Virus record (IMG/VR): IMGVR_UViG_3300045738_001664
Coordinates: 1 to 34,382 of that record
Length of the DNA stretch: 34,382 nucleotides
Origin: a virus
Direction: 5' to 3' (one strand)
Numbering within the stretch: the stretch's first letter is position 1; every line of letters begins with the position of its first letter. This document shows, one piece after another, positions 2,351-19,935 of the stretch. The translations under genes and the position numbers were made by a program. The notes under the pieces are model-generated. The model did not search any database. It was not told the DNA's origin and saw only the letters and a list, made by a program, of their open reading frames with translations.

Positions 2351-4111
2351 ATGGCGTACAACGCTCTCGACTTATCTGGGTGCCAGTGTGAACAACCGAG
2401 GCATTGCCCAGTCTTTAATAAGGAGATGGGCATATCGCCCCCCAATTGGGAGTGGTGCCAGCACGCAAGTGAGGGCGAGAGAAAAAAACTATATGAATCT
2501 TGCTATCAACGGGTTCGTAAGTTAAAGACACAAAAACATCGTGTCCCAATAATGCAGTTCTTCGATGAATTGCCCCCACAAGAAAATGACATAGCTCTTT
2601 GTGTTATTCCCGCCAACTGGAACGCATCTCAACAGCTAACAGAAACAAGGAGGTCGTTAGTCAGCTACGCCAAAAGGTGCAAGGCCGATTATATAGAACT
2701 ATCTGGCGACCAGTGCGAAGAATGGCCAATGGCCAACAAGTATAGACTACATCAGGTCACGACTAGATACAAAAAAACACTCTATGTAGACTGTGACGTG
2801 GTGATCAAAAAAGAAGCACCAGATATCTTCAAGCTAACCCCAGACGATAAAATATCTGCTTTTAATGAATTTGAAATCCACCCCGAAAACGGGTGGGTCA
2901 GAGAAGAACAAGAAATCATATCTTTCAAGCTAAATCTAGCTTCCATCGAGGTCGGCCTTGGGGTTAAAATGCTAAATGGTGGCGTTATGGTTATACCACA
3001 ATCATTAGCAGATTACTACAAACAGCCCAGCCAGCCATATCCTAGAATATGGTGTTTCGATCAGCACTTTCTCACTCTCACTCTTCCTGACGACAAATTC
3101 TTTAATTTAGACGAAAAGTTCAACACTGAATATATATCTAGAGAATTCTGGTCAAAGCTAGGAGAAAGTTACTTTGTACACATTAATAATTGCAAAGATA
3201 GTCATCTTAGAGAAATTCTAATAAAAAAAATCTGCGAGAACAGTCTTTCGGGTAATAATACCCCTAATTATTCTTTATACTCCACGCTGTATTCTGCCCT
3301 TGCAACGCATTGTGGTAAGTGTCCAGATCACGATGCAACGAGGTGCGTTAACTTTGTCAACAAGCATTGCGAAGCTGGTCAAGACGCCGACACTTCTTCT
3401 GTCCAAATATTAACCCTAGGCCACAGCCAAGAACAGTTTGACTCCATCGAGGACAGAGATTATATAAAAAAAATCAATTTAAACGAGCTAGATACAGATT
3501 ACGGAAACGAGTGGGGAGAAGCTAGAATTTTTGACGTAGATTTTGACTCGATATTCTCTAGGGATAAAACCTTTTTAGGCACTGTTACAGCCTCTTGGAA
3601 TAAAAAATATACAGGATGGCATCCTATTGACAAGTTTGAAAAGTGGGCTTCTGCTTCAGCCTTGACGAGATCTAAAAGTAAAAAGTTTATAATAGGTTCT
3701 CACGTAGATTGTGTGTGCTCTTGGTATGCGGGACATAGGATATTTAGCGATATAATCTTTAAAAACTTTACTTATAAGTATCTGTACAAATTTATGAAAT
3801 CAATTGGACTCCAACCAAATCATGGAAAAGTCACGGCCGCCAATCAGATCATCGCACACAGGGATACCGTAAAGAGTATTTTTAACTTTATGAAAGACAA
3901 TGAAGCGTTAGAAAGAACTAGGTTTTTCCTAAAAAGACATAAACTTGAAGGGAGGTCGGAATACTACGATAAGAGAAAACCGGCGTACTTTATGGAATTT
4001 GTCAGCCTTCTTTGGTACTGTAACCAAGATGATTTGATGTTCTCGCCCCAAGAACCACCAGCAACGGAGTGGTATCAACCCCAAGAAATGAACAAGCGGG
4101 TGGACTGGTAG
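2351..4111 (+). CDS. two-part glycosyltransferase with Cys-rich segments
   Basis: This 586-residue protein has four visible parts. Residues 1-60 are Cys-rich (CQCEQPRHC, WCQHAS, a later Cys), perhaps a metal-binding knob. Residues about 75-290 look like a GT-A transferase of the GT8 type: YVDCDVVI with Asp147 and Asp149 as the DxD metal/sugar-nucleotide site, then MLNGGVMVIP, then FDQHFLTL. Residues about 315-345 hold a second Cys cluster (HCGKCPDHDATRCVNF). Residues 350-586 form a further domain (NLNELDTDYGNEWGEAR, GSHVDCVCSWYAGHR, ATEWYQPQEM) of a type I cannot name. A fusion of two transferases is possible. It is followed 38 bases later by the mutase, so it may use a furanose or hexose donor. 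The transferase call rests on the DxD region. Confidence 0.7.
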   Translation: MAYNALDLSGCQCEQPRHCPVFNKEMGISPPNWEWCQHASEGERKKLYESCYQRVRKLKTQKHRVPIMQFFDELPPQENDIALCVIPANWNASQQLTETRRSLVSYAKRCKADYIELSGDQCEEWPMANKYRLHQVTTRYKKTLYVDCDVVIKKEAPDIFKLTPDDKISAFNEFEIHPENGWVREEQEIISFKLNLASIEVGLGVKMLNGGVMVIPQSLADYYKQPSQPYPRIWCFDQHFLTLTLPDDKFFNLDEKFNTEYISREFWSKLGESYFVHINNCKDSHLREILIKKICENSLSGNNTPNYSLYSTLYSALATHCGKCPDHDATRCVNFVNKHCEAGQDADTSSVQILTLGHSQEQFDSIEDRDYIKKINLNELDTDYGNEWGEARIFDVDFDSIFSRDKTFLGTVTASWNKKYTGWHPIDKFEKWASASALTRSKSKKFIIGSHVDCVCSWYAGHRIFSDIIFKNFTYKYLYKFMKSIGLQPNHGKVTAANQIIAHRDTVKSIFNFMKDNEALERTRFFLKRHKLEGRSEYYDKRKPAYFMEFVSLLWYCNQDDLMFSPQEPPATEWYQPQEMNKRVDW

Positions 4112-4149
4112 CATGCTATACAACAAAGAGAAGAACACTAAGGGTGGGT

Positions 4150-5247
4150 ATGACCTTGAAATATGACTATCTAATAGTGGGCTGTGGGTTATTTGGATCA
4201 ACCTTTGCTCGACAAGCTACCGATGCTGGAAAAAAGTGCCTCGTAATAGATAAGAGGGGTCATATTGGCGGAAACGTATTTACTGAAAACAAGGCCGGTA
4301 TACATGTTCACAAATACGGCCCTCATATTTTTCATACAAATTCTCAGGAGATATGGAATTACGTTAATCAGTTTGCGGTGTTCAATGATTATAAACACAC
4401 GGTCAAAGCTAGTTATAATGACCAACTGTATTCTTTCCCAATCAATCTTTATACGCTAGAGGAACTGTGGGGCAAACACGACAAAGACACCCTGCTATCT
4501 ATTTTAGATACAAAAAGAGTCAAAGTTGAACAACCAAAGAATTTCGAGGACTGGATGTTGAATCAAGTTGGCGAGGAAATATACCAAAAGTTTTTTTATG
4601 GCTACACAAAAAAGCAATGGTCTAGGGAGCCGCGAGATCTACCGACCTCCATCGCAAGAAGACTTCCAGTTAGAGATAACTACGACAACAGATACCACAA
4701 GGATCGCTACTCTGGTATTCCTATTGGGGGGTATACTGCCATGATGGAAAATATCTTGGACGGAATTCAGGTAGAGTTAGGGCAAAACTATTTTAATAAT
4801 CGTGACTATTATGATGGTTTAGCAAAAAGGGTTGTCTATACGGGTGCTATAGATGATTTCTTTGATCACCAATGTGGCACCTTAGACTGGAGGTCTCTAA
4901 GGTTTGACGAAGAAGTACACGCCAAGAAATACTACCAGTGTGTTGCACAAATAAACTATACAGATTACAACGTGGGATTCACTAGAATAGTGGAGCATAA
5001 GCACTTCAACGACAATGCCGAAATTAACCACACGATAATAACTAAGGAATACCCCGAAGACTACAGGGTAGGAATGGAAAAATACTACCCGATCAACGAC
5101 GAGAAAAATAAAATTCTGTACAGACAATATAGGAAAATGATACCCCCCAAGTACGTGTTTGGGGGTAGATTAGCTGAATATAAATATTACGACATGGATC
5201 AGATAATAGGGTCTTCAGCCAATAAAGCTGAAAAAGAACTGAAATAG
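4150..5247 (+). CDS. glf: UDP-galactopyranose mutase
   Basis: This flavoenzyme interconverts UDP-galactopyranose and UDP-galactofuranose in the cytoplasm, supplying furanose donors for glycans. The 365-residue length fits the family. An FAD-binding GxGxxG (Gly11, Gly13, Gly16) in a Rossmann start is followed by DKRGHIGGNVFTE. Family-typical segments follow: HKYGPHIFHT, FPINLYTLEELWG, YTKKQWSREPRDLP, and a C-terminal FGGRLAEYKYYDMDQ. The ATG at 4150 is chosen because the mutase fold begins there and a purine-rich AGGGTGGG lies just upstream; an earlier in-frame start would add 27 unrelated residues. It lies between two-domain transferase 2351-4111 and the polymerase promoter, separate from the main glycan block. 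The assignment is firm. Confidence 0.93.
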   Translation: MTLKYDYLIVGCGLFGSTFARQATDAGKKCLVIDKRGHIGGNVFTENKAGIHVHKYGPHIFHTNSQEIWNYVNQFAVFNDYKHTVKASYNDQLYSFPINLYTLEELWGKHDKDTLLSILDTKRVKVEQPKNFEDWMLNQVGEEIYQKFFYGYTKKQWSREPRDLPTSIARRLPVRDNYDNRYHKDRYSGIPIGGYTAMMENILDGIQVELGQNYFNNRDYYDGLAKRVVYTGAIDDFFDHQCGTLDWRSLRFDEEVHAKKYYQCVAQINYTDYNVGFTRIVEHKHFNDNAEINHTIITKEYPEDYRVGMEKYYPINDEKNKILYRQYRKMIPPKYVFGGRLAEYKYYDMDQIIGSSANKAEKELK

Positions 5248-5259
5248 CTCAGAATCAAC

Positions 5260-5288
5260 TTGACTATTTGTCTATTCTAGACTATTAT
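5260..5288 (+). promoter_or_regulatory. sigma70-type promoter before the replication genes
   Basis: TTGACT (5260-5265) and TATTAT (5283-5288) are separated by exactly 17 bases, close to the TTGACA/TATAAT consensus. It lies in the 90-base gap between the mutase stop and the polymerase start at 5338, with an untranslated leader of roughly 40 bases. Spacing and position make it the best promoter in the window. It would drive the split polymerase and exonuclease genes using host RNA polymerase. Confidence 0.75.
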
Positions 5289-5337
5289 ATTTAGGTTGAC
5301 CACCGCTGTTGAATTTGAAATATTGAAAGGAAAAGGA

Positions 5338-6960
5338 ATGAAGTGGTTCCCGCTGTGTAACTACACGCATTATTCTTTACAACGAGGCTTCTCTAAGCCC
5401 AAAGACCTAGCAAAAAAGTGTGCTGACAACTCTTATCCGGCCTGTGGCATTGCAGATTACAAATCAATATCTGGTGCCGTCTCTTTTTATCAGGCTTGTA
5501 ACGCAAGCAGCATTAAGCCAATTATAGGCTGCTCTTTTGATGGTTTTACCCTGTTCGCCAAGAATAAACAGGGCTGGTTTGATTTAATTCAGCTTGTATC
5601 TTCTATTGATTCTAAGGGCGAGGTTAACAGACCTTTACTAGTTGAAGTAGCCAATAAAGGAAACTTGATTTCCGTTGCTAAAGACGAGGCTAGCTCTCCC
5701 GTTCGCGGTGAAGATTTCTACGAAAAATCAGAAGCGTTCATGTCTATCTACTACACAGATAAGGATCATGCCCCCTTACACAGAATTACCCTGTGCTCTG
5801 GGATGAAGACCACGCTCCCAAAAATTAAAAAGGCGATCTCGGATAAAGAAGATGTAGAAAATAGTGTCTTTTTTGAGTCGAACGATTTCTACCTCAAAGA
5901 CAAAACAGAAATATCAAGACTCCTTATAGAAGATCCCAAGATGGATCTATTTCATAATATATTTGACAAATGTGAAAACTATAACATACTTAGCCAACCA
6001 ATCCTGCCTAAGTTTGAAACACCTAATGGGGAGTCTCAAAAAGATTACTTGAGAAATTTGGCTAGAGAAGGATGGGTGAAGAAGCTATCACACAAGATTA
6101 CAGATCCAGAGGAAAAGAAAGTCTACGGAGACCGATTCAAGCAGGAGTTTGAAGTCATAGAACAGGCTAATCTTTTCGGATATTTCTTAATTGTTCGTGA
6201 TATCATTAAGTATGTGGAGGGGCAAGGATGGCTAGCCGGTCCGGGTCGTGGTTCAGCCGCAGGTTGCCTCATCTCCTACCTCGTAGGTATTACACAAATA
6301 GACCCAATCGAATTTGATCTTTTGTTTGAAAGATTCTATAACGCAGGAAGAAATACTGAGGGTCACATCTCGTTGCCCGACATTGATATGGATGTTCCGG
6401 GTGGCAAACGCGATGAGATTATCACATACCTTAAAGATAAGTATGGACACAACAATGTTAGTCAGATGATTACTTTTGGCAGACTTCAGGGGCGAAGTGC
6501 CCTAAAAGAAGTACTGCGTGTCAACAACGCTTGCGGGTTTAGTGAAATGAATGAAATTACCAAGTCCATTCCAGATGAAGCTGCTATATCTGACCAGCTT
6601 GCAGACATGGATGCCGATGACCGATCCATTATTAAATGGTCTTTGCTAAACCATGCAGATGAACTGCGTGATTATTGCTTTGTAAACGACAGGGGAGAGC
6701 TTGAAGGTGATTATGCCGAATTTTTTCAACAGGCAATAAGCATCGAGGGCACTTTCAAAACACAGGGAAAGCACGCGGCTGGCGTTGTTATTTCAGCTGA
6801 AGAACTGTATACAGTTTGCCCTATGGTTAATCCTAAAAGCGGAGTAGAAAAAATAGCCGGACTTGAGATGGCAGACTTAGAAGCTCTTGGGCACGTCAAG
6901 TTTGACGTTCTGGGTATCAATCTTTTAGATAAACTAATGATGATCAAGGAGTTAATATGA
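5338..6960 (+). CDS. dnaE: DNA polymerase III alpha, N-terminal piece (PHP, palm, thumb)
   Basis: This is the first half (540 residues) of a C-family replicative polymerase. A PHP-like domain opens the protein; its metal-binding His residues are largely lost (PLCNYTHYSL, GIADYKSISGAVSFY), as in some bacterial DnaE. The core motifs follow: GYFLIVRDIIKY, LAGPGRGSAAGCLISYLVG and LPDIDMD with Asp348 and Asp350. GKHAAGVVI and HVKFDVLG, with the third catalytic Asp523, come after. The protein stops 17 residues past Asp523, near the palm/fingers boundary known from DnaE structures. The ATG at 5338 is preferred over a TTG 42 bases upstream; AAAGGAAAAGG precedes it. It overlaps the exonuclease gene by ATGA. 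It cannot polymerise alone, since the fingers lie in 7655-9214. It is about 550 residues, against about 1160 for the whole E. coli enzyme. Confidence 0.92.
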   Translation: MKWFPLCNYTHYSLQRGFSKPKDLAKKCADNSYPACGIADYKSISGAVSFYQACNASSIKPIIGCSFDGFTLFAKNKQGWFDLIQLVSSIDSKGEVNRPLLVEVANKGNLISVAKDEASSPVRGEDFYEKSEAFMSIYYTDKDHAPLHRITLCSGMKTTLPKIKKAISDKEDVENSVFFESNDFYLKDKTEISRLLIEDPKMDLFHNIFDKCENYNILSQPILPKFETPNGESQKDYLRNLAREGWVKKLSHKITDPEEKKVYGDRFKQEFEVIEQANLFGYFLIVRDIIKYVEGQGWLAGPGRGSAAGCLISYLVGITQIDPIEFDLLFERFYNAGRNTEGHISLPDIDMDVPGGKRDEIITYLKDKYGHNNVSQMITFGRLQGRSALKEVLRVNNACGFSEMNEITKSIPDEAAISDQLADMDADDRSIIKWSLLNHADELRDYCFVNDRGELEGDYAEFFQQAISIEGTFKTQGKHAAGVVISAEELYTVCPMVNPKSGVEKIAGLEMADLEALGHVKFDVLGINLLDKLMMIKELI

Positions 6961-7631
6961 ATCGTGATATAATTATGTTTGACTTTGAAACCGGTGGGCG
7001 TAATCCACTGCGTTGCCAGCCAACACAGCTTGCAGCAATTGCTCTAGATGGCAGAAACTTTCGACTTAAGGGTGAGTTCAACAGCTTAATGCGACCCATT
7101 CTTGATGACAAGAAAGCACTAAAGGCTGGCGTCGATCCGGTTGAAGAAGGAGCCTTAAAGGTTACTGGACAAACAAGGGCACAGCTAGCAAGGGCACCGC
7201 TACCCAAGGGGGTCTGGAAAAAGTTCTGCACATTTGTAAATAAATACAACTGGAAGGGTACGCCATACTTTGCCCCCATTCCAGCGGGTTTTAACATCAT
7301 CGGCTTCGATATGAAAATTGTCGATAGGCTCTGCAAAGAATATGGGCCTTGGGACGACAAAAGAGAATGCCAAAAGATATTTCACCAGATTTATAAAATT
7401 GATGTAATGGATGACGTATGGCTTTGGACAGAAGGCGACCCCAGCGTGAAGTCAATTAGCATGGATTCACTTAGAGAAAGGATGGGGTTGTCGTCAGAAA
7501 ATGCTCACGACGCATTACAAGACGTTAGGGATACAGCTAATATATTCATCAAGCTACAAAAATCCCGCAGGGCGGTGTATAGAAACATGAAGTTTGAGAA
7601 GGCGTTTGCTGACGGAAAATTATACGTTTAA
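6957..7631 (+). CDS. dnaQ: DnaQ-like 3'-5' proofreading exonuclease
   Basis: This 224-residue protein is a DEDDh exonuclease, the fold of the Pol III epsilon subunit. All five catalytic residues are present: Asp9 and Glu11 in FDFETGG, Asp118 in GFNIIGFD, and His184 and Asp189 in AHDALQDVRDT. It probably removes mismatched 3' ends for the phage polymerase. Its gene lies between the two polymerase pieces, overlapping the first by ATGA and ending 23 bases before the second, so all three should be made from one message in near-equal amounts. The fit is close: the polymerase PHP domain looks metal-free and thus unable to proofread itself. A clamp-binding motif was not identified. No homing-endonuclease features are present, so it is not an ordinary selfish insertion. 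Confidence 0.92.
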   Translation: MNRDIIMFDFETGGRNPLRCQPTQLAAIALDGRNFRLKGEFNSLMRPILDDKKALKAGVDPVEEGALKVTGQTRAQLARAPLPKGVWKKFCTFVNKYNWKGTPYFAPIPAGFNIIGFDMKIVDRLCKEYGPWDDKRECQKIFHQIYKIDVMDDVWLWTEGDPSVKSISMDSLRERMGLSSENAHDALQDVRDTANIFIKLQKSRRAVYRNMKFEKAFADGKLYV

Positions 7632-7654
7632 TTATGTTGTTGGGTTGAATTTTA

Positions 7655-9214
7655 ATGATTGATTTGAATGATGAAAAAGCTTGGGATCTTTTCAAGCAGG
7701 GCTTTACAAAAGGTGTATTCCAATTAGAGAGTAATCTGGGTAGGTCTTGGTCTAAAAAATTAGCACCTTCTAACATAGAAGAATTAGCTGCACTAATAGC
7801 CCTGATCCGACCGGGTTGCCTGAAGGCTATCATTGATGGCAAGTCTATGACACAGCGTTTTGTAGACAGGAAGCACAAAAAGGAAGACGTTACCTATTTG
7901 CATAGTTCTTTAGAGGACATACTAAAGCCCACGTATGGGGTTCTTGTCTATCAAGAGCAATCCATGCGTATAGCACAAAAGCTTGCGGGGTTTGATTTAA
8001 AAAAGGCTGACGACTTACGCAAGGCAATTGGAAAAAAGAAAGCCGACCTTATGGCCCTAATTAAAACAGACTTCATCGCAGGATGCAAAAGCCAAGGTAT
8101 TGTAGATGAAATTACGGCAAATGAAATCTTCGGGTGGATTGAGAAATCCTCCCGCTATTCATTTAACAAATCTCACGCAGTGGCGTATGCATTTGACTCC
8201 TACTGGTCTGCTTGGTACAAAGCAAACCACACCAGTGAGTTTTTCCTGTCTTACTTATTTTATGCCTCAGAGAAACAAGACCCGCACCAAGAGGTTTATG
8301 AACTCGTGTCTGAGGCCAAGCTGTTTGACATTGAGGTTAAACTACCAAAGCTTTCATCTTTTAGCACAAAATTCAGCATTAAAGAAGATGGGCTTTATTT
8401 TGGAATCAAAGATGTTAAATCACTTACTGGAGTTACTGGGGATAAGGTCATTCGGGCCATTGAAGAAACTTCGGAGGAACTAGAAAAAAATCCGAAGGAC
8501 TTTAATTGGATGGACATTATTGTATATTTGTCACCAAAAATTAATGCGACCGCTTTTAAAGCCCTTTGCTCGATTGGTTTCTTCTCGACAAAGACTACGA
8601 ACATTTCAAGAAACAGAGCATTATACGAATATCTTATTTTTAGAGAATTAACTAAAGCAGAAACAACTTGGGTTCAAAATAACTACCCCGATAGACAGTG
8701 GCAGGAAATGTATGATTGCCTTATGGAATTAGCACCCACGAAAAAAGGGGGTGGCGGGACAAGCAGAGAAGAAAGAAGTCAGATAGTTTATAATGAGGCA
8801 AACTTCCTTGTACACCCGCCCTACGATCTTTCCGATGATCCGGCTTGGATTATCGAGCAGGAAAATAAATTCCTAGGCTGTCCCATTTCGCTGTCAAGAA
8901 TTGATGCTGCGGACACTTCTGTTGCGAACACTTACTGTAGGGACGTATTAAATGGAAAAACCGGTAAAAACATATGCATCGCAGCAAATGTAAACAGGGT
9001 GGCAACCACAATCGTTAAGCGAGGTAAAACGAAGGGGAGAAGAATGGCGTTCTTGACCATAGAAGACGCGACATGCTCCCTAGACAGCGTCGTTGTATTC
9101 CCAGAGGCTAGAGAGAGATATCAATTTGTTTTATATGAAGGCAATAATCTCTTGCTTTGCGGCAATATAGAAAAGGGTAATTCCTTTATTGTAAACAAAA
9201 TCCATGAAATATAG
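7655..9214 (+). CDS. dnaE: DNA polymerase III alpha, C-terminal piece (fingers, HhH, OB)
   Basis: This 519-residue protein is the second half of the split polymerase. It begins at the fingers domain: DEKAWDLFKQGFTKGVFQLES corresponds to the LDD-KSF...FQLES region that in DnaE follows the third catalytic Asp by about 40 residues. Family segments follow: LIALIRPG, YGVLVYQEQSM, LAGFDLKKADDLRKAIGKKK, SRYSFNKSHAVAYA. Then comes a helix-hairpin-helix-like part (INATAFKALCSIGFF) and a C-terminal OB fold (GRRMAFLTIEDATCSLDSVV). A tau-binding tail as in E. coli is missing. The start ATG has only a weak ribosome binding site, so translation may be coupled to the exonuclease gene; an in-frame stop at 7646-7648 rules out an earlier start. 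The pieces together make 1059 residues and must associate to work. Confidence 0.92.
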   Translation: MIDLNDEKAWDLFKQGFTKGVFQLESNLGRSWSKKLAPSNIEELAALIALIRPGCLKAIIDGKSMTQRFVDRKHKKEDVTYLHSSLEDILKPTYGVLVYQEQSMRIAQKLAGFDLKKADDLRKAIGKKKADLMALIKTDFIAGCKSQGIVDEITANEIFGWIEKSSRYSFNKSHAVAYAFDSYWSAWYKANHTSEFFLSYLFYASEKQDPHQEVYELVSEAKLFDIEVKLPKLSSFSTKFSIKEDGLYFGIKDVKSLTGVTGDKVIRAIEETSEELEKNPKDFNWMDIIVYLSPKINATAFKALCSIGFFSTKTTNISRNRALYEYLIFRELTKAETTWVQNNYPDRQWQEMYDCLMELAPTKKGGGGTSREERSQIVYNEANFLVHPPYDLSDDPAWIIEQENKFLGCPISLSRIDAADTSVANTYCRDVLNGKTGKNICIAANVNRVATTIVKRGKTKGRRMAFLTIEDATCSLDSVVVFPEARERYQFVLYEGNNLLLCGNIEKGNSFIVNKIHEI

Positions 9215-9243
9215 TTGCCTTATAGTGATTAATAAGCTACTAT
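9215..9243 (+). promoter_or_regulatory. sigma70-type promoter before ssb
   Basis: TTGCCT (9215-9220) and TACTAT (9238-9243) are 17 bases apart, in the 48-base gap between the polymerase C-piece and the SSB gene. It is a fair match to the host housekeeping consensus. It would let SSB and the downstream glycan genes be transcribed independently of the polymerase. Confidence 0.6.
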
Positions 9244-9262
9244 AGGCATTAAAGGAGTATTG

Positions 9263-9580
9263 ATGAATAACTGCACTTTCACGGGATATCTTACAGATAA
9301 CCCAGACACAGAAATCACAGACGGGGTGGCTCATACCACCTTTAGGATGGTAACATATAATTATGTTAGAAATAAGCACGGCCAAAAAAAGAGATACCCG
9401 ACCACACTAACGTTCGAGGCTTGGCATACTGGGGCGGAAACCATAGCTAAGTTAGCGGAAAAGGGCACAAAAATGACCGTGCATGCGTCAGCCAGAAATG
9501 GCGAGCTTCAAGCGGCTGACAATGATGATATACGTTTTAGGGTAAACGAATTCGACTTCGGATGCTTGGACAAGGAATAA
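9263..9580 (+). CDS. ssb: single-stranded DNA-binding protein
   Basis: This 105-residue protein resembles a short bacterial-type SSB, an OB fold that coats single-stranded DNA at the replication fork. The order of segments fits: MNNCTFTGYLTDNPDTE (SSB start, as in VxLxGxLTxDPE), HTTFRMVTYNYV, TLTFEAWHTGAETIAKLAEKGTKMTV (as in the W-x-x-A-E-x-x-x-K-G-x-x-V region), then a strand with RFRVNEFDFG. The acidic C-terminal tip of typical SSB is reduced to DFGCLDKE. The ATG at 9263 sits after AAAGGAGTATTG; an adjacent TTG at 9260 is a poorer start. Placed directly after the polymerase genes, it completes a minimal fork set. The next gene begins one base after its stop. Confidence 0.82.
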   Translation: MNNCTFTGYLTDNPDTEITDGVAHTTFRMVTYNYVRNKHGQKKRYPTTLTFEAWHTGAETIAKLAEKGTKMTVHASARNGELQAADNDDIRFRVNEFDFGCLDKE

Positions 9581-9581
9581 T

Positions 9582-11267
9582 ATGAGAAAAAAGAGAATCT
9601 TATTTTGTAGCGAAGCAACATTCCTTAATACTGGATATGCCACCTACACGAGGGAAATATTAAACTATCTCTATGGCACTGAGAAATATGAATTAGCAGA
9701 AATGGCCTCTTATGGCCAGCGAAATGATCCGCGAGCCGCCAATATACCTTGGACGTATTACGGTGTCGCACCAAACGTCGACTGTGAGCCAAGGGCTTTA
9801 CAGGAAGAGATCGAAATGTACAGCTCTTCTGGAACCAACCAGTTCGGTGAGTGGATCTTTGAGCATGTTTGCTTAGATTTCATGCCCGACATTGTCTGCG
9901 ACATCCGCGACTTTTGGATGCTTGATTTTGAAGAACGCTCCCCGTTTCGCCCGCTTTTCAAGTGGGCGGTTATGCCCACGGTTGACGCAAGGCCCCAAGC
10001 ACGGCAATGGGTTGCAACATACCAATCTGCTGACGCTTGTTTTACATACTCTGACTGGGCGGGAAAAATTTTAAGAGATCAATCTGGGGACAAGATTAAC
10101 TACCTTGGAAGTGCTCCCCCTTCTGCACACCCAGCATATAACCCCGTAGAAGATAAGCATGCCCACAAGTTAAGATATGGTATCGATCCAGAATATAAAA
10201 TTATTGGAACGGTAATGCGTAACCAAAGACGCAAGCTTTACCCAGACTTGTTTGAGGCGTTTCGGAAATTCTTAGATGCCTCCGAAGATAAGAAATTCTA
10301 TCTGTATTGCCACACATCATATCCAGATTTGGGCTGGGACATTCCAGAGTTGATCTTAGAGAATGGTTTGTCATCTCACGTTATGTTCACCTATATTTGT
10401 CCAGAAACAAAAAAGCCGTTCCCGTCGTTGTTTAAGGGGGCTATTGCACAGTCTCCATTTACCGGAAAGTGGGGAGCGACCCTTTCAAACGTGAAGAATG
10501 GTGTGTCTTATGAAGACCTGTCTAGCATCATTAACCTTTTTGATCTTTATACTCAGTATGCGAATTGCGAGGGTTTTGGTCTTCCGTATGTAGAAGCTGC
10601 GGCCTGTGCGGTACCCGTTTGCGGTACAGACTATTCTGCCATGGAAAGTGAAATTAGAAAGCTCGAAGGATACCCAATTAAGATAAAGGCACTCTATAAA
10701 GAACTAGAGACGGGTTGTTTGCGAGCCGTTCCAGACAACGACGAAGCCTGTAAGCTATTTCTAGAGTTCTTCTCCAAAACACCAGAAGAAAGACTAGCCG
10801 AAGGAAAGAGAACACGAGAAAATTTTGACAAACATTACCAGTGGGATAAAAGCGGCTCTCAATGGGAGAAATTCTTTGATAGCTTTGAACCTTTGCCGAT
10901 TGAGCAAACGTGGGCCTCTCCACCCAGAATATACAACCCCAACCCAAAGCCGTCAGAAGAAGAAATTGAGGGTGTGGGTATGGGAAACTTGGCTAGATGG
11001 TTAATTACAGACGTGCTAGGTGATCCATCAAAGCTCAACACATTCTTTGAAGCTAGGTTAACGAGAGACCTTATGTACCGTACCGCCACGGGTTCAACTG
11101 GGGGCATGTATTTTAACGAATCTTCCGCTGCTTTTGAAGGCGTGAACCAAAGAGTTAATTTTAATTTTGATTTAGCTTATGACCAAATGGTTCAACAGTG
11201 CCAGAGAACAAACAATTGGGAACAAAAAAGGGTCGAGACGATGAAGCAAAAGGGAGTCATTAAATGA
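9582..11267 (+). CDS. GT4-type glycosyltransferase with C-terminal extension
   Basis: This 561-residue GT-B transferase moves a sugar from a nucleotide donor. The N-terminal Rossmann half contains FCSEATFLNTGYATYTREIL, an acceptor-loop signature of family 4. The C-terminal half has GTVMRNQRRKLYPDLFEAF and the donor-site E-x7-E motif at Glu330 and Glu338 (CEGFGLPYVEAAACAVPV). After about residue 440 a roughly 120-residue extension continues (PPRIYNPNPKPSEEE and LARWLITDVLG), of unknown role. Its stop overlaps the next ATG by four bases. It opens the main glycan block right after ssb. Donor and acceptor cannot be read from sequence. Confidence 0.87.
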   Translation: MRKKRILFCSEATFLNTGYATYTREILNYLYGTEKYELAEMASYGQRNDPRAANIPWTYYGVAPNVDCEPRALQEEIEMYSSSGTNQFGEWIFEHVCLDFMPDIVCDIRDFWMLDFEERSPFRPLFKWAVMPTVDARPQARQWVATYQSADACFTYSDWAGKILRDQSGDKINYLGSAPPSAHPAYNPVEDKHAHKLRYGIDPEYKIIGTVMRNQRRKLYPDLFEAFRKFLDASEDKKFYLYCHTSYPDLGWDIPELILENGLSSHVMFTYICPETKKPFPSLFKGAIAQSPFTGKWGATLSNVKNGVSYEDLSSIINLFDLYTQYANCEGFGLPYVEAAACAVPVCGTDYSAMESEIRKLEGYPIKIKALYKELETGCLRAVPDNDEACKLFLEFFSKTPEERLAEGKRTRENFDKHYQWDKSGSQWEKFFDSFEPLPIEQTWASPPRIYNPNPKPSEEEIEGVGMGNLARWLITDVLGDPSKLNTFFEARLTRDLMYRTATGSTGGMYFNESSAAFEGVNQRVNFNFDLAYDQMVQQCQRTNNWEQKRVETMKQKGVIK

Positions 11268-12268
11268 ACTCAATAGTAATTACGGGCTGTGCGGGTCTGC
11301 TAGGCTCGCACTTTTCTCGCCACCTGTTAAGTAAAGGCTATCGGGTTATCGGAGTAGACAATTTAAGCGGCGGGTATGCAGATTTTTTACCAGACCACGG
11401 AAATTTTGAATTTCACGGGTTTGGCTTGGAGTCTGGCCTCAAAAGACTCAACGACATCTTCCAGAGAGAAGAACCCATCGCTTGTTACCATTTTGCAGCA
11501 TATGCAGCCGAAGGATTGTCCCCCTTTATAAGGCATTTTAATTACACCAACAACGTATTAGCATCAGTAAACGTTACCAACGCTTGTATAAATTCAGGCT
11601 GCAAGCTGATCTTTACTTCGTCTATGGCTGTTTACGGAAGGCACTACCCCCCGTTTACCGAGAACATGGCACCGGCACCAATTGACCCTTATGGAATCGC
11701 TAAGTATACGGTAGAAATGGATATCAAGCAGGCCAGACATCAATTTGGCTTACGCTACAATATAATTCGCCCTCACAATGTCGTGGGGATCTACCAGAAC
11801 ATCTGGGATCGTTATCGTAACGTCATCGGCATTTTTATACGACGAGTTTTAGACCTTAAGCCCATGCTCATATATGGAGACGGGGAACAAACCCGTGCTT
11901 TTTCTGATATAAAATATTACATGGAGCCGTTTGAGAAACTAATCGACAGCACCCATGACAGCCACATATTTAATATTGGTGCCGACAAATACTGGACGAT
12001 AAATGAAGTAGCTAGAATCGTAGAGACGGTCGCCAGCAAATATGGACACAAGGCTACTATAGAAAATGTAGAGGCTCGCCACGAAGCCAAGCATGCATAC
12101 TGCGATCATACGAAGGCCAAAGACCCCAAGGGTTTAAACTTCGTGGATCATACAGACTTAGAAAAACTAATTGATGAAATGTTTGACTGGGCCATGTGTC
12201 AACCAAAACGCGAAATGAAATCAATGGAGTACGAAGTTAAAAAGGGGATATATGACTACTGGAAATAG
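11264..12268 (+). CDS. NAD-dependent epimerase/dehydratase (UDP-hexose epimerase-like)
   Basis: This 334-residue extended short-chain dehydrogenase acts on a nucleotide sugar, most likely as a UDP-hexose 4-epimerase or a relative. The NAD-binding GxxGxxG is TGCAGLLGSHF near the start. The catalytic set is visible: FTSSMAVYG (Ser/Thr), and Tyr143 and Lys147 in DPYGIAKY. RPHNVVG and YGDGEQTRAFSDI follow the GalE plan. A His/Glu-rich segment (ENVEARHEAKHAY) in the C-terminal part fits substrate-end variation. It overlaps the genes on both sides, so it is part of one operon. Whether it makes galactose, a uronic acid or another sugar is not decided by the sequence. Confidence 0.85.
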   Translation: MNSIVITGCAGLLGSHFSRHLLSKGYRVIGVDNLSGGYADFLPDHGNFEFHGFGLESGLKRLNDIFQREEPIACYHFAAYAAEGLSPFIRHFNYTNNVLASVNVTNACINSGCKLIFTSSMAVYGRHYPPFTENMAPAPIDPYGIAKYTVEMDIKQARHQFGLRYNIIRPHNVVGIYQNIWDRYRNVIGIFIRRVLDLKPMLIYGDGEQTRAFSDIKYYMEPFEKLIDSTHDSHIFNIGADKYWTINEVARIVETVASKYGHKATIENVEARHEAKHAYCDHTKAKDPKGLNFVDHTDLEKLIDEMFDWAMCQPKREMKSMEYEVKKGIYDYWK

Positions 12269-13019
12269 ACTGAATCTTCCAGATGTAACTATCTTCACAT
12301 TCTGCTGGGGTTCGGAACATGTAGAAAAATCACTTAGGGCCATGCTTATCGGCATGGATCAGGTTGATTTTAAGAAATCTGTTCTGATTACTGATAGCAG
12401 TAAAACAGATCTGAGTTTGTTTCAAGACGTAATAAACAGAAACAATATCGAAGTCTGCGACGTGGTAACGGGCTTAAATTCAAATCTAAAAGATGACGAC
12501 GAGAATAGGGAGGGCTTTTGTGAATCTTTTGTGCAACAAGCAAATAAATATATTTTAGATGATTTTTGTTTGAATGTTCAGCACGACTCGACTATTCTAG
12601 ACGCATCCAAGTGGGACGATGCATACCTGCAATATGACTATATTGGTGCCCCTTGGCCAATGGATATTATTCAAGCAAGCGACATGGTTGCTGGCCGCAT
12701 AGAGGAAATACCCAACGTTGTTGGCAACGGGGGGTTTTCCCTGAGAACACGAAAGTTTGTAGAAGAATCGGCCAAGCTTGGATGGGAACATAAAAACGAA
12801 GACCTCAATATCTGTGTTTTCAATTATGACCACATGATCGATAAGGGAATAAAATTTGCACCCCCAGAGCTTGCAATAACATTTTCCGTAGAGCACCCGA
12901 TGCCATACAAGCACTTTACGAGAGACTTGGTATTCACATATGACTCGTTTGGTTTTCACGGTGAATTTAACGCCGGTGGCATGCAATTTATAAATCACTA
13001 CGCTATTACAGGAATATAA
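12252..13019 (+). CDS. DUF5672-like glycosyltransferase
   Basis: This 255-residue protein carries the marks of the DUF5672 transferase-like family: a QHDS acidic pair followed by W, then YDYIGAPWP, then VGNGGFSLRTRKFVE and an ED pair in NEDLNICV. In this family the Asp-rich segment and the GNGGFSLR loop are thought to form the donor site. There is no signal peptide, so it is cytoplasmic. It starts 17 bases inside the preceding epimerase gene and ends three bases before the next transferase. The donor and acceptor are unknown. Confidence 0.75.
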   Translation: MTTGNRLNLPDVTIFTFCWGSEHVEKSLRAMLIGMDQVDFKKSVLITDSSKTDLSLFQDVINRNNIEVCDVVTGLNSNLKDDDENREGFCESFVQQANKYILDDFCLNVQHDSTILDASKWDDAYLQYDYIGAPWPMDIIQASDMVAGRIEEIPNVVGNGGFSLRTRKFVEESAKLGWEHKNEDLNICVFNYDHMIDKGIKFAPPELAITFSVEHPMPYKHFTRDLVFTYDSFGFHGEFNAGGMQFINHYAITGI

Positions 13020-13022
13020 TAT

Positions 13023-14147
13023 ATGAAAGTGCTATACATAGGATATTACAAAGAAAATAGCGATTGGGGCAAATTAACCTCAAACAACATCCTCGCCCTA
13101 GACTCGGCTGGCGTAGATGTTGCGTGTAGGGCAATTAGTCTGGGTGTGGATAGGCAGATATCTGGAAGACTAGAAGAGCTAGAAAAGAAAAGCATAGATG
13201 ACTGCGATCTCTGCATTCAGCACGTCTTTCCAGATAACATGGTGGGTAGCAATAAATTCAAAAAGAATATTGCCATATTTGGAAATAGCTTTGTAGAGCT
13301 TGAACATACCACATCTGTAGAAAAACTAGAGCTAGCCGATGAGGTGTGGGTTCCGAGTGCTTGCTCTGCGGAATACCTAGGATCGATTTTGAATAAACCC
13401 TGTAAATATGTCCCCTTTGCCTGCCAGATAGATGATTACACCAAACCATATCAAAACATAGAAATTCCGCAAGCCCAAAACCAGTTTAAATTTTATTCAT
13501 TTGTAGACCCAAGTGATGCTAAGGCATTAGATACTACTCTGTCATGTTTTCACTCCGAATTTGATTCATCAGAAGGTGTTGCACTAATACTATTATCGAC
13601 ATCAAATATGGATGGAGCCAAGGACAAGATAGACAACGTGTCTTTAGATGTCAAGCGGGCGTTAGGGCTACAAAAAGATCCATCAATGTACATTAGGGAT
13701 ATAATTATAACAGAGTCTAATTTAACGGAGTCAAATTTATACGAAATGCACCAATATGGCGACTGCTTTTTAAGCTTGGGCGGGGGAGACCCTTGGTCAC
13801 CACATGTGCTTGACGCTATGGCCTTTGGTAGCACCCCAATAGCAACCGCTTGGGGAGGAACCAAGTCCTTTTTGAAGGACAATGGCACGCTTGTTAGCGG
13901 TAGTTTCCAGTGCCGTAAAACTACTAAGGAAACCAGATCCGAGTCCAACCTAGGAAAAGACTACCTCTTGCTCCCCTGCCACAGAGAAACAAGATTGGCT
14001 ATGCGTAATGCCTATAACAACTGGCTGGAAAACCCCATAAAACACGCGAAAGACAGCAGGGTTAAGGGGCTAGAAAGGGCAAAAGAATTTTCACTACAGA
14101 ACGTAGGAAAGATAATGAAGGAGAGGCTGGAAAATGCTGAAAACTGA
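13023..14147 (+). CDS. GT-B glycosyltransferase, family 4-like
   Basis: This 374-residue protein begins with a Rossmann strand (MKVLYIGYYKENSDWGKL). It has the linker region ADEVWVPSACSAEYLGSI and KYVPFACQI typical of GT4. The donor region is GDCFLSLGGGDPWSPHVLDAMAFGSTPIAT, here with Asp where the second Glu of E-x7-E is usual (LDAM for LEAM) and Gly-Asp for the first. That difference may alter catalysis or donor choice. The start overlaps nothing; the end overlaps the next gene by 14 bases. It is one of two adjacent GT4-like genes, perhaps an old duplication, although the N-terminal halves differ strongly. Confidence 0.78.
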   Translation: MKVLYIGYYKENSDWGKLTSNNILALDSAGVDVACRAISLGVDRQISGRLEELEKKSIDDCDLCIQHVFPDNMVGSNKFKKNIAIFGNSFVELEHTTSVEKLELADEVWVPSACSAEYLGSILNKPCKYVPFACQIDDYTKPYQNIEIPQAQNQFKFYSFVDPSDAKALDTTLSCFHSEFDSSEGVALILLSTSNMDGAKDKIDNVSLDVKRALGLQKDPSMYIRDIIITESNLTESNLYEMHQYGDCFLSLGGGDPWSPHVLDAMAFGSTPIATAWGGTKSFLKDNGTLVSGSFQCRKTTKETRSESNLGKDYLLLPCHRETRLAMRNAYNNWLENPIKHAKDSRVKGLERAKEFSLQNVGKIMKERLENAEN

Positions 14148-15114
14148 AAACATTATTAACAGGGTGGGTAGAACAAACAAAACGTATAACGTACTTACAT
14201 TTAATACTCACGAAAGATATCAGTCCCAACTAGCCAAAACTGGGCATAATTTTTATGCTTTTACTTACGAAGGGGGTAAAGATTGGTACTCTGGCCACGC
14301 ACCAATGCCGGATAATTACTATGTGTTACCTAAAAACGCCATGTATCCGGCCATAAACTTTGACTTCATTCTTTCCAATAGCAAGTTTGGTCAATTTCAG
14401 ACAGCGTTTCAGATAAATAGATCGCTACAGATACCGATCATATCCCTAGAACACACCTTGCCACTTCAAAATTGGCCAGAACAACAATTACAGGAATTTC
14501 AGTCCATGAATGGTGATATCAATGTATTTATTACTGAGTACTCAAAGAAGGAGTGGAGCATGGAGGGCGAAGTAATTTACCACTCGATTGATGCCGAACT
14601 TTTCAAACCCGCCGAACACCCTTCTAGGGAAAAGGTAATTTTAACTGTTGCTCATGATTTTATTAACCGAGACTACGCTCTTAATTATCACGGCTGGAAT
14701 AGAATCACTGAGGGGCTAGATCGTAAAGCAATAGGAGAAACAGAGGGATTATCCAAACAAAGCGAGTCTGTAGAGGATTTAATTAGTGAATATCAGAATG
14801 CCCTGATTTATATCAATCCCAGCACCCTTAGTCCTGTGCCGACATCTTTACTGGAAGCCATGTCCTGTGGCTGTGCTATTGTTACCACCGAGACGTGTGA
14901 GATTCCAAATATTATCAAACATGGTGTAAATGGTTTTATGTCAAACGATGAGCCAGAACTTAGAAAGTACTGCGAACAGCTACTGGCTGATCCAGAACTT
15001 GCTTTCAAGATGGGGGCAGCGGCCAGAGAAACAATTAAAGAGAAATTTTCACAGAATCGGTTTGTTGATGAATGGAACAAAATTTTTGACAAGGCATACG
15101 AGGTGATAAAATGA
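14134..15114 (+). CDS. GT4-type glycosyltransferase
   Basis: This 326-residue GT-B protein has a short N-terminal acceptor half (NVLTFNTHERYQSQLAKTGH) and a clear GT4 donor half: KVILTVAHDFINRDYALNY, then YINPSTLSPVPTSLLEAMSCGC with Glu241, then NIIKHGVNGFM and the C-terminal helix KEKFSQNRFVDEWNKIF. The first Glu of E-x7-E is replaced in the STLSPVPTSLLEAM stretch. It starts inside the preceding transferase gene and its stop overlaps the following ATG by four bases. The fold is secure; the sugar is unknown. Confidence 0.8.
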   Translation: MLKTENIINRVGRTNKTYNVLTFNTHERYQSQLAKTGHNFYAFTYEGGKDWYSGHAPMPDNYYVLPKNAMYPAINFDFILSNSKFGQFQTAFQINRSLQIPIISLEHTLPLQNWPEQQLQEFQSMNGDINVFITEYSKKEWSMEGEVIYHSIDAELFKPAEHPSREKVILTVAHDFINRDYALNYHGWNRITEGLDRKAIGETEGLSKQSESVEDLISEYQNALIYINPSTLSPVPTSLLEAMSCGCAIVTTETCEIPNIIKHGVNGFMSNDEPELRKYCEQLLADPELAFKMGAAARETIKEKFSQNRFVDEWNKIFDKAYEVIK

Positions 15115-15527
15115 AATTACAGGTTTTAAAATCAGATCAAGACTCTATTGAAAACTTTACACAGGTTTTTGTAAGCCCCAATGAGATTGATCTTAAGGAC
15201 ATATCTGATAACGAATGCGAAACAATAATCGCACCAGATGTATTGGATAGCTTCTCGGCTCAAAATATAGCCGAGTTGATTAAAGCGTTGCTCTCCAAGT
15301 TAAGGTTGGGCGGTGAGATATCGATAGGGGGTACAGATGTGAGGCTATTCTCCAAGTGTACCCTAAACGGGTCGCTATCAGTAAGCGAAGCGTCTGACAT
15401 AGCTGGACAGATGGAATCCATGACGGCATTACCAATGATACAAGACATGCTAACAAGTGCTGGTCTAAGGATTCTATCTTCGCATCTAAATGGTATTCAC
15501 TTTGAAATAAAAGCAACAAGGGGGTAA
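15111..15527 (+). CDS. degenerate methyltransferase-like protein
   Basis: This 138-residue protein looks like the second half of a class I SAM-dependent methyltransferase: LLSKLRLGGEISIGGTDVRLFSK matches the strand-4/5 region where L-x-PGG occurs, and MLTSAGLRILSSHLNGIHFEIKATR matches the C-terminal strand pair. The first half, with the glycine-rich SAM-binding motif, is absent or too altered to see. It is therefore either inactive, a partner for another protein, or reused. It overlaps both the start (ATGA) and the reading of the operon closely, so it is being kept as a gene. The function is an inference from shape only. Confidence 0.45.
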   Translation: MKLQVLKSDQDSIENFTQVFVSPNEIDLKDISDNECETIIAPDVLDSFSAQNIAELIKALLSKLRLGGEISIGGTDVRLFSKCTLNGSLSVSEASDIAGQMESMTALPMIQDMLTSAGLRILSSHLNGIHFEIKATRG

Positions 15528-15529
15528 GC

Positions 15530-16300
15530 GTGGATTGCTCGAAGTGTATCTTTGCTGAATTTTCCCCGCCTAGCAGTGGTGGCCCACACGGTGTTTTTCA
15601 AACAGGTTGCAGTATAGGCAGGCTGGACACCCTAAAGAATCTGAACAAAGCGAAATTTGTCGAAGACAAGGCGTGTTACGAACTAGCTCAATTTTGTAAT
15701 TTGTACAGAGACGACGAGTGGGCAAAGAAACTTTCTACAGAAGAAGTGCTACAGGATCAAGACTGCTTCGCCTCCGCTGCAAGAAAAGAAATTGAACCCA
15801 CTTTTGGGATTGCGATCTACGACTCGCCACAAGCAACTATTGATGAATTAGAAACAACGGTGTCGTCATTGCTAGAGTCCAAGTACGACAAATCTAAACT
15901 CAGCATAGTAATTTCTACCTCCTTGACCAGACCTATAGTTCAAACGGTTGATTTAGTAAACAGGATCAAGGAAAAAGTAAACAAGGTTAAGGGTATCACG
16001 CATCTTTTCGATAAAAGCAACACGAGAGACAGAGAATGTTTTCAAAAGCTTGTGGGTGCGTCCTACTTTGTTAGAATAGAAGCGAGTCAGAGCATTTCTC
16101 CGTTATGGTTCAACAAAATAGGTGCCTCGTTGAACGAAAGATTAGAGCAGATTACACTGTTCGAGAACAAGGAGGGGGCAACAGCAATCCCGTGCGGCGT
16201 GGTGCGATCTCTTTATCTAGACTTTAATGATTACGATTTAATGGTGAAGGAGTTAAAAAAAATATCTAAGGAGCAAGATAAATATAAACTTTTACCATGA
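15530..16300 (+). CDS. Cys-rich, glycosyltransferase-associated protein
   Basis: This 256-residue protein starts at GTG 15530, two bases after the previous stop, with AGGGGG as ribosome binding site; no ATG fits. Residues 1-50 are Cys-rich: MDCSKCIFAEF, then FQTGCSIGRLD, then DKACYELAQFC, a layout I recall from phage glycan clusters. The rest recalls a reduced GT2 fold: FGIAIYDSPQATIDELETTVSSL, YDKSKLSIVISTS and a later LWFNKIGASLNERLEQI. No DxD was found, so catalysis is doubtful. It may bind metal through the Cys set and pair with a neighbouring transferase. It overlaps the next gene by ATGA. Confidence 0.5.
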   Translation: MDCSKCIFAEFSPPSSGGPHGVFQTGCSIGRLDTLKNLNKAKFVEDKACYELAQFCNLYRDDEWAKKLSTEEVLQDQDCFASAARKEIEPTFGIAIYDSPQATIDELETTVSSLLESKYDKSKLSIVISTSLTRPIVQTVDLVNRIKEKVNKVKGITHLFDKSNTRDRECFQKLVGASYFVRIEASQSISPLWFNKIGASLNERLEQITLFENKEGATAIPCGVVRSLYLDFNDYDLMVKELKKISKEQDKYKLLP

Positions 16301-17049
16301 GAAAACCTAGAACCAACGAATTTATTACTACCCCCAGACCGGGGCCTAACGCCAAGCGATCTGAACCTATATCAGTGATATTGCTTGCTGAAAACCATGG
16401 ATATAGAATGAAATCATACGGCCCCATATCTTTAGTCGTAGTAGACGGAAAAACTCTCATAGAGCGTCAAATAGAAGCAATTAGTTCTGCGTTTCTTGAT
16501 TTCGAGGTAATTGTTTGCTCCGGCTTCGAGACCGCCAAGATTTACAATTTCATCAAGAAAAGGTTTGGGAGAAGCGTAAAAATCAGAATAGTTGAAAATC
16601 AGGTATACTTTCATTCAAATTGTTGCGAAAGTATCAGGCTGTGTATGAATAACGTAATGACTGATAGCCTAATAATATGCGGGGGCGGTGTGTTGCTTAC
16701 CCCCCAATATTTAAGATCCGTTGATCTCAAAAAACCATCAATGCTTTATCAAAACCCACAGTCCGACAGCGAGTTTGACATTGGTGTAATAGAAAATGCT
16801 GGAAAATTAGAGAATCTATCACTAGCCATTGACGATAAATGCTGGACTGAGCTAACATATTTGACGGGGTACAACCTAATACAATCTTTTTATAACCTAA
16901 TTTCCAACCCAGAATACAAGAACAAGTTCCTATTTGAAGCAATAAATGCATGGCCCAGCCGAAGGCAGATATCTACAAGGTTCAACGAACATTACCCCAT
17001 AGTTAAAATTAATAACATTAAAATGCTAAGAAGGATTAACGAGGAATGA
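16297..17049 (+). CDS. degenerate sugar nucleotidyltransferase-like protein
   Basis: This 250-residue protein has the shape of a sugar-1-phosphate nucleotidyltransferase. The start of the fold reads ISVILLAENHGYRMKSYGPISLVVVDGKTLIERQIEAI. In active members the loop is LAAGxGxRM and a Lys precedes the SL; here Gly-rich loop residues are replaced by Glu-Asn-His and the Lys by Ile. Residues around 125 (CGGGVLLTPQYL) stand where the metal-binding Asp would be, and no Asp is there. It therefore probably lacks activity as a nucleotidyltransferase and may be a regulatory or structural relative. It overlaps both neighbours by ATGA, so it is well embedded in the operon. Confidence 0.6.
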   Translation: MRKPRTNEFITTPRPGPNAKRSEPISVILLAENHGYRMKSYGPISLVVVDGKTLIERQIEAISSAFLDFEVIVCSGFETAKIYNFIKKRFGRSVKIRIVENQVYFHSNCCESIRLCMNNVMTDSLIICGGGVLLTPQYLRSVDLKKPSMLYQNPQSDSEFDIGVIENAGKLENLSLAIDDKCWTELTYLTGYNLIQSFYNLISNPEYKNKFLFEAINAWPSRRQISTRFNEHYPIVKINNIKMLRRINEE

Positions 17050-17924
17050 AAATTTTATTTCACAACTATACAACACCCCTGTCAACAGAAGCTCGATATT
17101 TACACGCCGCATTAAATAGCGTTGGCATGCAAGCAGAAGCGTGGATAAATCCCCAGATTAGTGCGTATGATATATTAGATGGTTACCAGCCAAATGTTTT
17201 AGTCTCTCATTATACATTTTTAACCAATGATATAGTCAAGTACCTCACAAATAACAAGAGCATTGACCTAGTTCTCAATGTTACTGGTGCGGATAAACAT
17301 GCCATGTCTGCGATAGAGGGCTTGTCCGACTCTGCAAACATACCGTTTGTATTCACCAACAACTATGCCAACGACGAGAAGTCCTCAAAATTACAGGTTC
17401 ATAATATATTACCAGCGGCTGACACCTTCCTGCTAAATGGGCAACCACGCAGCCCAGAAATAGATCTTGGGATAATCGGAAACTCAATAACCAAGGAAAT
17501 GGAAGGGGTAATAAAAAGGGAAAAAATGTACCACTTGCTTTGCTTGGGCAAGGGTGAGGGGTTTGATTTGGAAACCAATATAACACAGTTAGCTGACATT
17601 TATGGACTCTACACCAAAATCATACTGTCTGGAGACATAAGCCTAGTTGCATCACAGGTATTTTTTGACATATGCATGGGCGGTCACGATCTAAATGTCG
17701 TCTTAAGTAAAAAGCAGAAGGAGAAATTCGATGATTTTCTGGAAAAGGTCTTTAAGGAGCCAAAACACTCAGCGAGAGACACAAATCTCATACAAGAAGT
17801 CAAGTCTCAAATCATTTCCAAGCATACGCCGTTCAATCGAGCAGAAAGGTTGATGCGGTTTTTAAAAAATGATGAGGCCGTCAAAATGTTACAAAAAGCC
17901 CAAAAAGATATGGTCAAAAGCTAG
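17046..17924 (+). CDS. putative GT-B-like protein of the glycan block
   Basis: This 292-residue protein begins MKILFHNYTTPLSTEARYLHAAL, a GT-B-like N-terminal Rossmann half with LHAALNSVGMQAEAW. Then NVLVSHYTFLTNDIV and FVFTNNYANDE follow. The middle has IDLGIIGNSITKEMEG, close in form to the DIGFCGNINNRGG segment of the transferase at 24324-25175, and ASQVFFDICMGGHDLNVVL where a donor site would be. The usual E-x7-E is absent. It is best called a possible glycosyltransferase of uncertain activity. It overlaps the previous gene by ATGA and ends the first half of the glycan operon, before a promoter. Confidence 0.45.
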   Translation: MKILFHNYTTPLSTEARYLHAALNSVGMQAEAWINPQISAYDILDGYQPNVLVSHYTFLTNDIVKYLTNNKSIDLVLNVTGADKHAMSAIEGLSDSANIPFVFTNNYANDEKSSKLQVHNILPAADTFLLNGQPRSPEIDLGIIGNSITKEMEGVIKREKMYHLLCLGKGEGFDLETNITQLADIYGLYTKIILSGDISLVASQVFFDICMGGHDLNVVLSKKQKEKFDDFLEKVFKEPKHSARDTNLIQEVKSQIISKHTPFNRAERLMRFLKNDEAVKMLQKAQKDMVKS

Positions 17925-17939
17925 GTGTTAGACTATAAT
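17911..17939 (+). promoter_or_regulatory. promoter within the glycan block
   Basis: TATAAT (17934-17939), a perfect -10, lies 17 bases after TGGTCA (17911-17916, four of six matches to TTGACA). It overlaps the 3' end of the previous gene and precedes the only clear gap (30 bases) in this part of the operon. It would restart transcription for 17955 onward, including glnB. The ribosome binding site AGGAAG follows. Confidence 0.55.
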
Positions 17940-17954
17940 AAATAGGAAGCTAGG

Positions 17955-18657
17955 ATGAAATTATTAGTTCAATTCCCTACCCTGAGTAGATCAGATAAGT
18001 TTTTAAGGTGTTTAGATGCTTATGTTGGCTACGCGAGCGGTCACAACGAAATATTCTTCAATATAAATTGTGACTCCAGCGATTTAATGATGACCGACCC
18101 GTATGTTCAGGAGAGAATTAGGTATATACTTTCCAAGTCTTCAAGTGTTGACGGGATAGTCAATTTTGATAGCAATATGGATAAGATAGACGCCATTAAC
18201 GCACACATAGACGATAGGGAATTTGATATTGTCATCTGTGCCTCCGACGACATGGTTCCCCAGAAAGCCAACTGGGATGAGAAAATAACCACGGCCATGA
18301 GTGAAAATTTCCCAGACTTAGACGGGTGTGTACATTTTAATGATGGGCATACAGCCGGAAAGCTAGTGACATTTTCTATCTTGGGAAAAAAATTATACGA
18401 ACACTTTGGGTATATTTATCACCCCGACTATAAAGGTCTATATTGCGATGATGAATTTACACAAGAGGTGACTAGGATGGATAAGGTAGCATATATTGAC
18501 GAGATAATTATAACACACGAGCACTATAGTATAGAGGGGACAGAGAATCATGGCCATCTAGACTTCGCGGCTAAAAAAACCCTGTTTTATTCTGGCAGGG
18601 ATGGTGCCGTTTTTAAGAAAAGAAAGAAGCTTGGCTTTCCAAGAGAAAGGATAACGA

Positions 18658-18665: not shown

Positions 18666-19935
<1,270 letters not shown>

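Follow-up and report, generated by a model that had tools for sequence, protein, structure and literature searches.

Positions 5338 to 9214 of an IMG/VR virus record (IMGVR_UViG_3300045738_001664) encode a DnaE-type DNA polymerase in two genes, broken between the palm and the fingers, with the gene of a DEDDh 3′–5′ exonuclease lying between the halves. The whole record, 34,382 bases in length, is referred to here as the window. DnaE is the main bacterial replicase. The same split and the same gene order are found in all the relatives tested, so that the observation is real and far beyond chance. The explanation that we favour, to which we give a probability of about 0.83, is that a full-length DnaE underwent a single, ancient gene fission, that its halves reassemble non-covalently with the exonuclease as probable proofreader, and that they would form the replicase of a large uncultivated lineage of tailed phages. 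Split genes for the alpha subunit of DNA polymerase III (Pol III) are already known in phages in other forms (PMC7824862 and isolates). What is new is a palm/fingers cut of a full-length DnaE that is clade-wide and of single origin, with an exonuclease gene fixed in the gap.

The two polymerase chains

The N-terminal piece (N; 5338–6960, plus strand; 540 residues) carries a PHP-like domain, the palm and the thumb (PF02811, PF07733), and the C-terminal piece (C; 7655–9214, plus strand; 519 residues) the fingers, the helix-hairpin (clamp-binding) region and the OB domain (PF17657). N matches the Pfam profiles PHP (8e-15) and DNA_pol3_alpha (8e-66, profile positions 2–260 of 260), and C matches DNA_pol3_finger (1e-46, positions 25–166 of 166). 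On PHROG 405, a family of phage DNA polymerases, N covers positions 246–614 and C 626–1054, leaving ∼11 positions between them. The two pieces thus fit profiles of C-family polymerases from one end to the other, and profile searches of the PDB with both agree with this assignment. The catalytic aspartates D348, D350 and D523 are all on N and are invariant in 36 sequences. Asp523, within a KFD sequence, is the third of these, and N stops 17 residues further on. The fingers motifs LRKAIGKK and FNKSH of C are invariant or nearly so among the relatives. The coordinates and the Pfam matches agree with the first-pass annotation of this DNA, made from the sequence and its open reading frames, which had placed all three aspartates on one chain and the fingers on the other.

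The predicted structures lead to the same division. AlphaFold models of N and C, each predicted alone from alignments of relatives, have mean confidence (predicted local distance difference test) values of 91.6 and 92.2, respectively. Structural alignment by VIA-align places residues 1–540 of the N model on residues 4–572 of E. coli alpha (2hnh), with Z = 28.1 and a deviation of 3.1 Å over 497 residues, and also on residues 5–635 of Taq alpha. The C model (1–519) aligns with E. coli alpha 588–1073 (5fku_A; Z = 22.2, 448 residues at 9.3 Å, the large deviation presumably due to rotated domains), with Taq alpha 647–1121, and with M. tuberculosis DnaE1 616–1099 (7pu7_A; Z = 21.0, 4.6 Å, 446 residues). 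Only residues 573–587 of E. coli alpha, or 636–646 of the Taq protein, are left unmatched between the models, corresponding to a linker of 11–15 residues. Since N and C occupy complementary stretches of Pol III alpha, the catalytic core is fully covered save for this linker. The whole domain order of a DnaE (PHP, palm with three catalytic aspartates, thumb, fingers, helix-hairpin, OB) is present, spread over two chains; rather than one polypeptide there are two open reading frames in every relative.

The three genes of the polymerase operon lie head to tail and are followed by that of a single-strand binding protein (SSB). The N frame begins at the ATG at 5338 and ends at 6960. An in-frame TTG at 5296 also opens this frame; the ATG is preferred because it has an AAAGGA ribosome site and gives a length in agreement with the relatives. 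The exonuclease gene (6957–7631, plus strand; 224 residues) overlaps the stop of N as ATGA, and its AAGGAG ribosome-binding site (6946–6951, plus strand) lies within the 3′ end of the N gene, five bases before the exonuclease ATG. A scan for Shine–Dalgarno-like sites found one before the exonuclease gene in 35 of 44 relatives. The spacing from exonuclease to C is 23 bases in the window and varies among the relatives from overlap to more than 1 kb. The SSB gene (9260–9580, plus strand; 106 residues; PF00436, 2e-8) is directly downstream of C. Many relatives share the order N, exonuclease, C, SSB, and the SSB gene comes just after C in most loci.

Recurrence and origin of the break

How widespread is the split polymerase? 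IMG/VR was searched with each piece and then with alignments, recovering several hundred loci. In a first survey of ∼100 non-redundant loci all were split, and the exonuclease lay in between wherever all three pieces were present. A second survey gave 144 viral loci that hold N and C together; each was split with the exonuclease in between, none was intact, and C-piece identity ranged from 83% down to 39%. Altogether the order N, exonuclease, C was found in 177 distinct loci, and every locus judged for continuity was split. In a cellular comparison set 77 of 78 DnaE genes were intact. The sole exception, in a Patescibacteria metagenome-assembled genome (MAG; L361, 4286–7419), changes frame near N residue 430 and is likely a frameshift. 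Two contigs binned with Flavobacteriales and Lokiarchaeota MAGs (L317 and L318) carry the split arrangement. These are probably viral and provide weak hints of host only.

The probable cellular frameshift serves as a reminder that a break in DnaE may arise through an error of sequencing, assembly or binning. For the lineage such an origin has almost no probability and is refuted by the recurrence: the arrangement is seen at 177 distinct loci sampled independently, with conserved starts and stops and a gene of 0.7 kb within the break. A sequencing error whose correction would restore one frame, an outcome that would have overturned the first-pass claim, is excluded by an arrangement fixed in the whole clade under purifying selection.

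The break has a single origin. A tree built by maximum likelihood from 34 split polymerases, together with 8 intact ones from phages and 20 from cells, places the split sequences on one side of one branch, with support of 100 in the Shimodaira–Hasegawa-like approximate likelihood ratio test. In deep members of the lineage C begins with the linker that is missing from the window, for example KIVFDSSIDSINLDCQKTWDL in L226. Thus at first the cut lost nothing, and the linker was trimmed later. That only a short loop had been lost, as first proposed for the window, is borne out by this and by the 11-position gap in PHROG 405. In four of the deep loci (L222, L226, L216 and L208) C is extended at its N terminus, ahead of the linker, by a stretch that contains a CGCxF motif. 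All three genes are under strong purifying selection, with a median ratio of non-synonymous to synonymous substitution (dN/dS) of 0.06 for N, 0.02 for the exonuclease and 0.04 for C. Pairwise distances among the N pieces correlate at 0.91 with those among the C pieces, and the exonuclease distances correlate with either at ∼0.8.

Among the 177 loci, 46 have genes of HNH type or resembling endonuclease VII next to the exonuclease, in the gap towards N or that towards C. Since such genes visit the gaps, insertion of a mobile element would be the likeliest origin of the break. Mobile endonuclease genes have been implicated in the break of T4-type split genes (PMC2988022). Other gap genes are FkbM-like methyltransferases, glycosyltransferase-like or unmatched; L064, L084, L019 and L044 provide examples of gap genes. 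A conserved protein of ∼70 residues with no Pfam match is encoded between N and the exonuclease in 19 loci (L133, L138, L140 and others), and a different one of ∼58 residues takes this position in six deep loci such as L205.

Probable assembly, proofreading and replication

Introns and inteins often interrupt phage polymerase genes, and the two halves might therefore be rejoined: a cis or trans intron, or a split intein, at the break would give one DnaE chain, with the exonuclease gene inside the intervening element. Inteins do enter these genes elsewhere. In L205 (2805–5096) a split intein cuts N at GPGRG/SAAGC, the N-terminal intein half beginning CFVPETNIKM and the C-terminal half ending VEGIGVHN, so that DnaE is in three genes; an HNH-like gene lies just upstream, at 2025–2753. 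In L305 (8479–12112) two inteins interrupt C: a cis intein at IRPG/CTKAI and, at SFNK/SHS, a split intein whose halves flank a separate endonuclease-like gene (10098–10985), a fractured-gene arrangement. These inteins are obvious, and serve as positive controls for the motifs, whereas the palm/fingers break is intein-free in both loci. In the relatives examined N has no intein-like tail, stopping a few residues after LDKxMxIKEL, and C starts at its own ATG with no C-terminal intein motif. The absence of an intein noted on first reading was therefore correct. No Rfam intron was matched at the gathering threshold in the window or five relatives, although Rfam does not detect every intron. At a relaxed threshold (E up to 5) the junction gave only chance matches to small nucleolar and long non-coding RNAs in Rfam. 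The Rfam result is not decisive by itself, as the interrupted gene of Bacillus phage Jayan is also unmatched. There (L153, 5980–9387) DnaE is broken near the palm catalytic aspartate, at a point corresponding to residues 401/402 of the GBK1 enzyme, and the almost seamless interruption is probably an intron. The gene overlap, the missing linker, the 23-base gap of the window and the variable gaps of the relatives argue further against rejoining, which we regard as highly improbable.

In the fission that we favour, the DnaE gene would have been cut once, long ago, in the palm–fingers linker. Each half would have its own translation start and fold independently, and N and C would then associate without a covalent bond, so that palm, thumb and fingers again surround the DNA. 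The catalytic aspartates would come from N; C would contribute the fingers, which handle nucleotide and template, as well as the helix-hairpin region and the OB domain. The exonuclease gene would have become fixed between the halves, with operon order ensuring co-expression.

The exonuclease matches Pfam RNase_T (PF00929, 1.1e-9) and PHROG 192, ‘DNA polymerase exonuclease subunit’ (8e-26), and it matches the PolC exonuclease 2p1j at 3e-6, so that it is DnaQ/PolC-exo-like. The DEDDh residues D9, E11, D118, H184 and D189 are invariant in 17 relatives, with the ExoI D-x-E, the ExoII D and the ExoIII H-x4-D all present. It was correctly described from the outset as a complete DEDDh gene filling the gap with an ATGA overlap. 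Most likely it is the proofreader, a separate subunit like epsilon in E. coli. Relatives of the exonuclease occur in the phage isolates Bacteroides DAC16, Chryseobacterium MA9V-3 and Virus Rctr197k; the large neighbour genes scanned there were terminase, ligase, helicase or unmatched, with no DnaE.

The same two gaps collect other genes, those of the HNH and endonuclease VII-like types among them, and N and C might form the polymerase with the exonuclease a mere passenger in a tolerant site, for example a nuclease acting in recombination or on host DNA. We consider this unlikely. Whereas the inserts vary from locus to locus, no surveyed locus lacks the exonuclease; of the three genes it is under the tightest constraint, its distances follow those of N and C, and it belongs to a PHROG of polymerase exonuclease subunits. 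There is also a stronger version of its role, in which the exonuclease would bridge or license the joining of palm and fingers in a three-chain core, so that assembly would be tied to the proofreader being there. The constant place of the exonuclease gene in the break would then be accounted for, yet we hold this version to be rather unlikely. That the three proteins form one enzyme, as was first suggested for this locus, is nonetheless plausible.

Is the pair a replicase at all? The phages might use the host DNA polymerase, with N and C in other roles or the gene decaying. The PHP part of N in the window (5338–6000) is ∼100 residues shorter than that of L133 (5868–6700) and lacks His ligands (HLHTHYS in L133, NYTHYS in the window), suggesting that PHP activity was probably lost within the lineage; PHP inactivity is common in DnaE. 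No phage clamp was found either. Set against this, no variation is seen in the catalytic residues of either chain, dN/dS is well under 1, N and C always co-occur, and helicase and SSB are present with no other polymerase, making a non-replicative role very improbable. In each of 14 long viral records (101–174 kb; not certified complete) there is exactly one match to PF07733 and one to PF17657, both belonging to the split polymerase. A- and B-family polymerases were looked for in eight long records and found in none. An uninterrupted DnaE elsewhere in the genome, which would have undermined the first-pass reading, was sought in the window record and the 14 longer relatives and was found in none. 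A DnaB-like helicase is encoded in 9 of 10 records. Because there is no other polymerase, a helicase is present, dN/dS is low and the distances of N and C are correlated, the pair is very likely the functional replicase of the lineage.

Several points weigh against this account. The lineage is known from sequences alone; no cultured member was found in the phage collections searched, where the best identity to a phage isolate was ∼31–35%. A phage DnaN beta clamp was absent from all 10 records by PF02767, so that any clamp used would be that of the host or one that escaped detection. The standing of the pair as sole polymerase comes from viral records that are not certified complete, and binding of the exonuclease to the polymerase is argued from gene order, family and conservation.

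The lineage records gave no match to terminase family PF17289; the large terminase subunit (TerL) was detected by PF03237 in seven of eight, the nearest isolate TerL being only ∼24% identical. In the window the polymerase genes are embedded in a large carbohydrate cassette (2351–19557) with UDP-galactopyranose mutase, glycosyltransferases, sugar epimerases and a nucleotidyltransferase. Two minus-strand genes (28546–32889 and 32909–34300) encode proteins, of 1447 and 463 residues, with no match in Pfam or PHROG.

Relation to other divided polymerases

There is good precedent for a divided phage replicase. The gp43A and gp43B proteins of Aeromonas phage 25 are reported to purify together and to have polymerase activity, and in phages 25 and 44RR the replicase is likewise in two chains that reassemble without splicing (PMC2988022). 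A cut phage replicase can therefore work. These are family B enzymes of unrelated fold, known from a few phages, and their intervening sequence is a homing endonuclease gene or an untranslated spacer, in contrast to the lineage-fixed exonuclease of proofreading type found here.

In the group 2.2 jumbo phages a minimal Pol III alpha core is divided between two proteins that are thought to rebuild one enzyme (PMC7824862). There the cut lies between the nucleoside triphosphate-binding and the Mg/template-binding subdomains, the genes are distant, the remaining domains of Pol III are absent and the phages also have a family B polymerase (PMC7824862). Here the cut is between palm and fingers, the genes are adjacent, the protein is full-length with PHP and OB domains, and no family B polymerase was found, so that the lineage does not share these features of group 2.2.

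Closer in position is Corynebacterium phage P1201 (gp59/gp58; L400, 1408–4768), in which DnaE is broken in the same palm/fingers linker. Its halves overlap in two frames and the linker is kept; a frameshift, real or from sequencing, or an independent split is possible. In Microbacterium phage DannyDe (57/58), Rhodococcus phage MacGully (68/67) and Mycobacterium phage Papyrus (72/74) the PHP domain is apart from palm and fingers, and in Staphylococcus phage S-CoN_Ph1 the break is inside the fingers. None of these five has an exonuclease gene in its break.

The split-intein DnaE of cyanobacteria (cited in PMC3919608) also comes from two genes; each half there carries part of an intein, and ligation yields a single chain. 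The polymerase described here is split without an intein at the break, and the two sites differ, as first noted.

The alpha subunit of E. coli is a single chain with a separate exonuclease, and the PolC of Gram-positive bacteria a single chain with the exonuclease inside. In both a DEDDh exonuclease likewise serves a C-family polymerase; here alpha is in two chains, with the exonuclease gene between. The first-pass annotation called this a third arrangement. As a gene order that description stands, but as a state of the protein it does not, since here, as in E. coli, the exonuclease is a chain of its own. The arrangement is not described in the literature searched, which covers few subscription journals.

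The palm/fingers joint of DnaE closes on every added nucleotide, and the lineage, in whose long records no other polymerase was found, is a natural experiment on the degree of covalent continuity that a replicative polymerase requires. For reconstitution, structural work and the design of split enzymes, it supplies a C-family polymerase that is already in two parts. A fission that was fixed once and kept across deep divergence, while HNH and intein elements are still entering the same genes, bears on the origin of split essential genes in phages.

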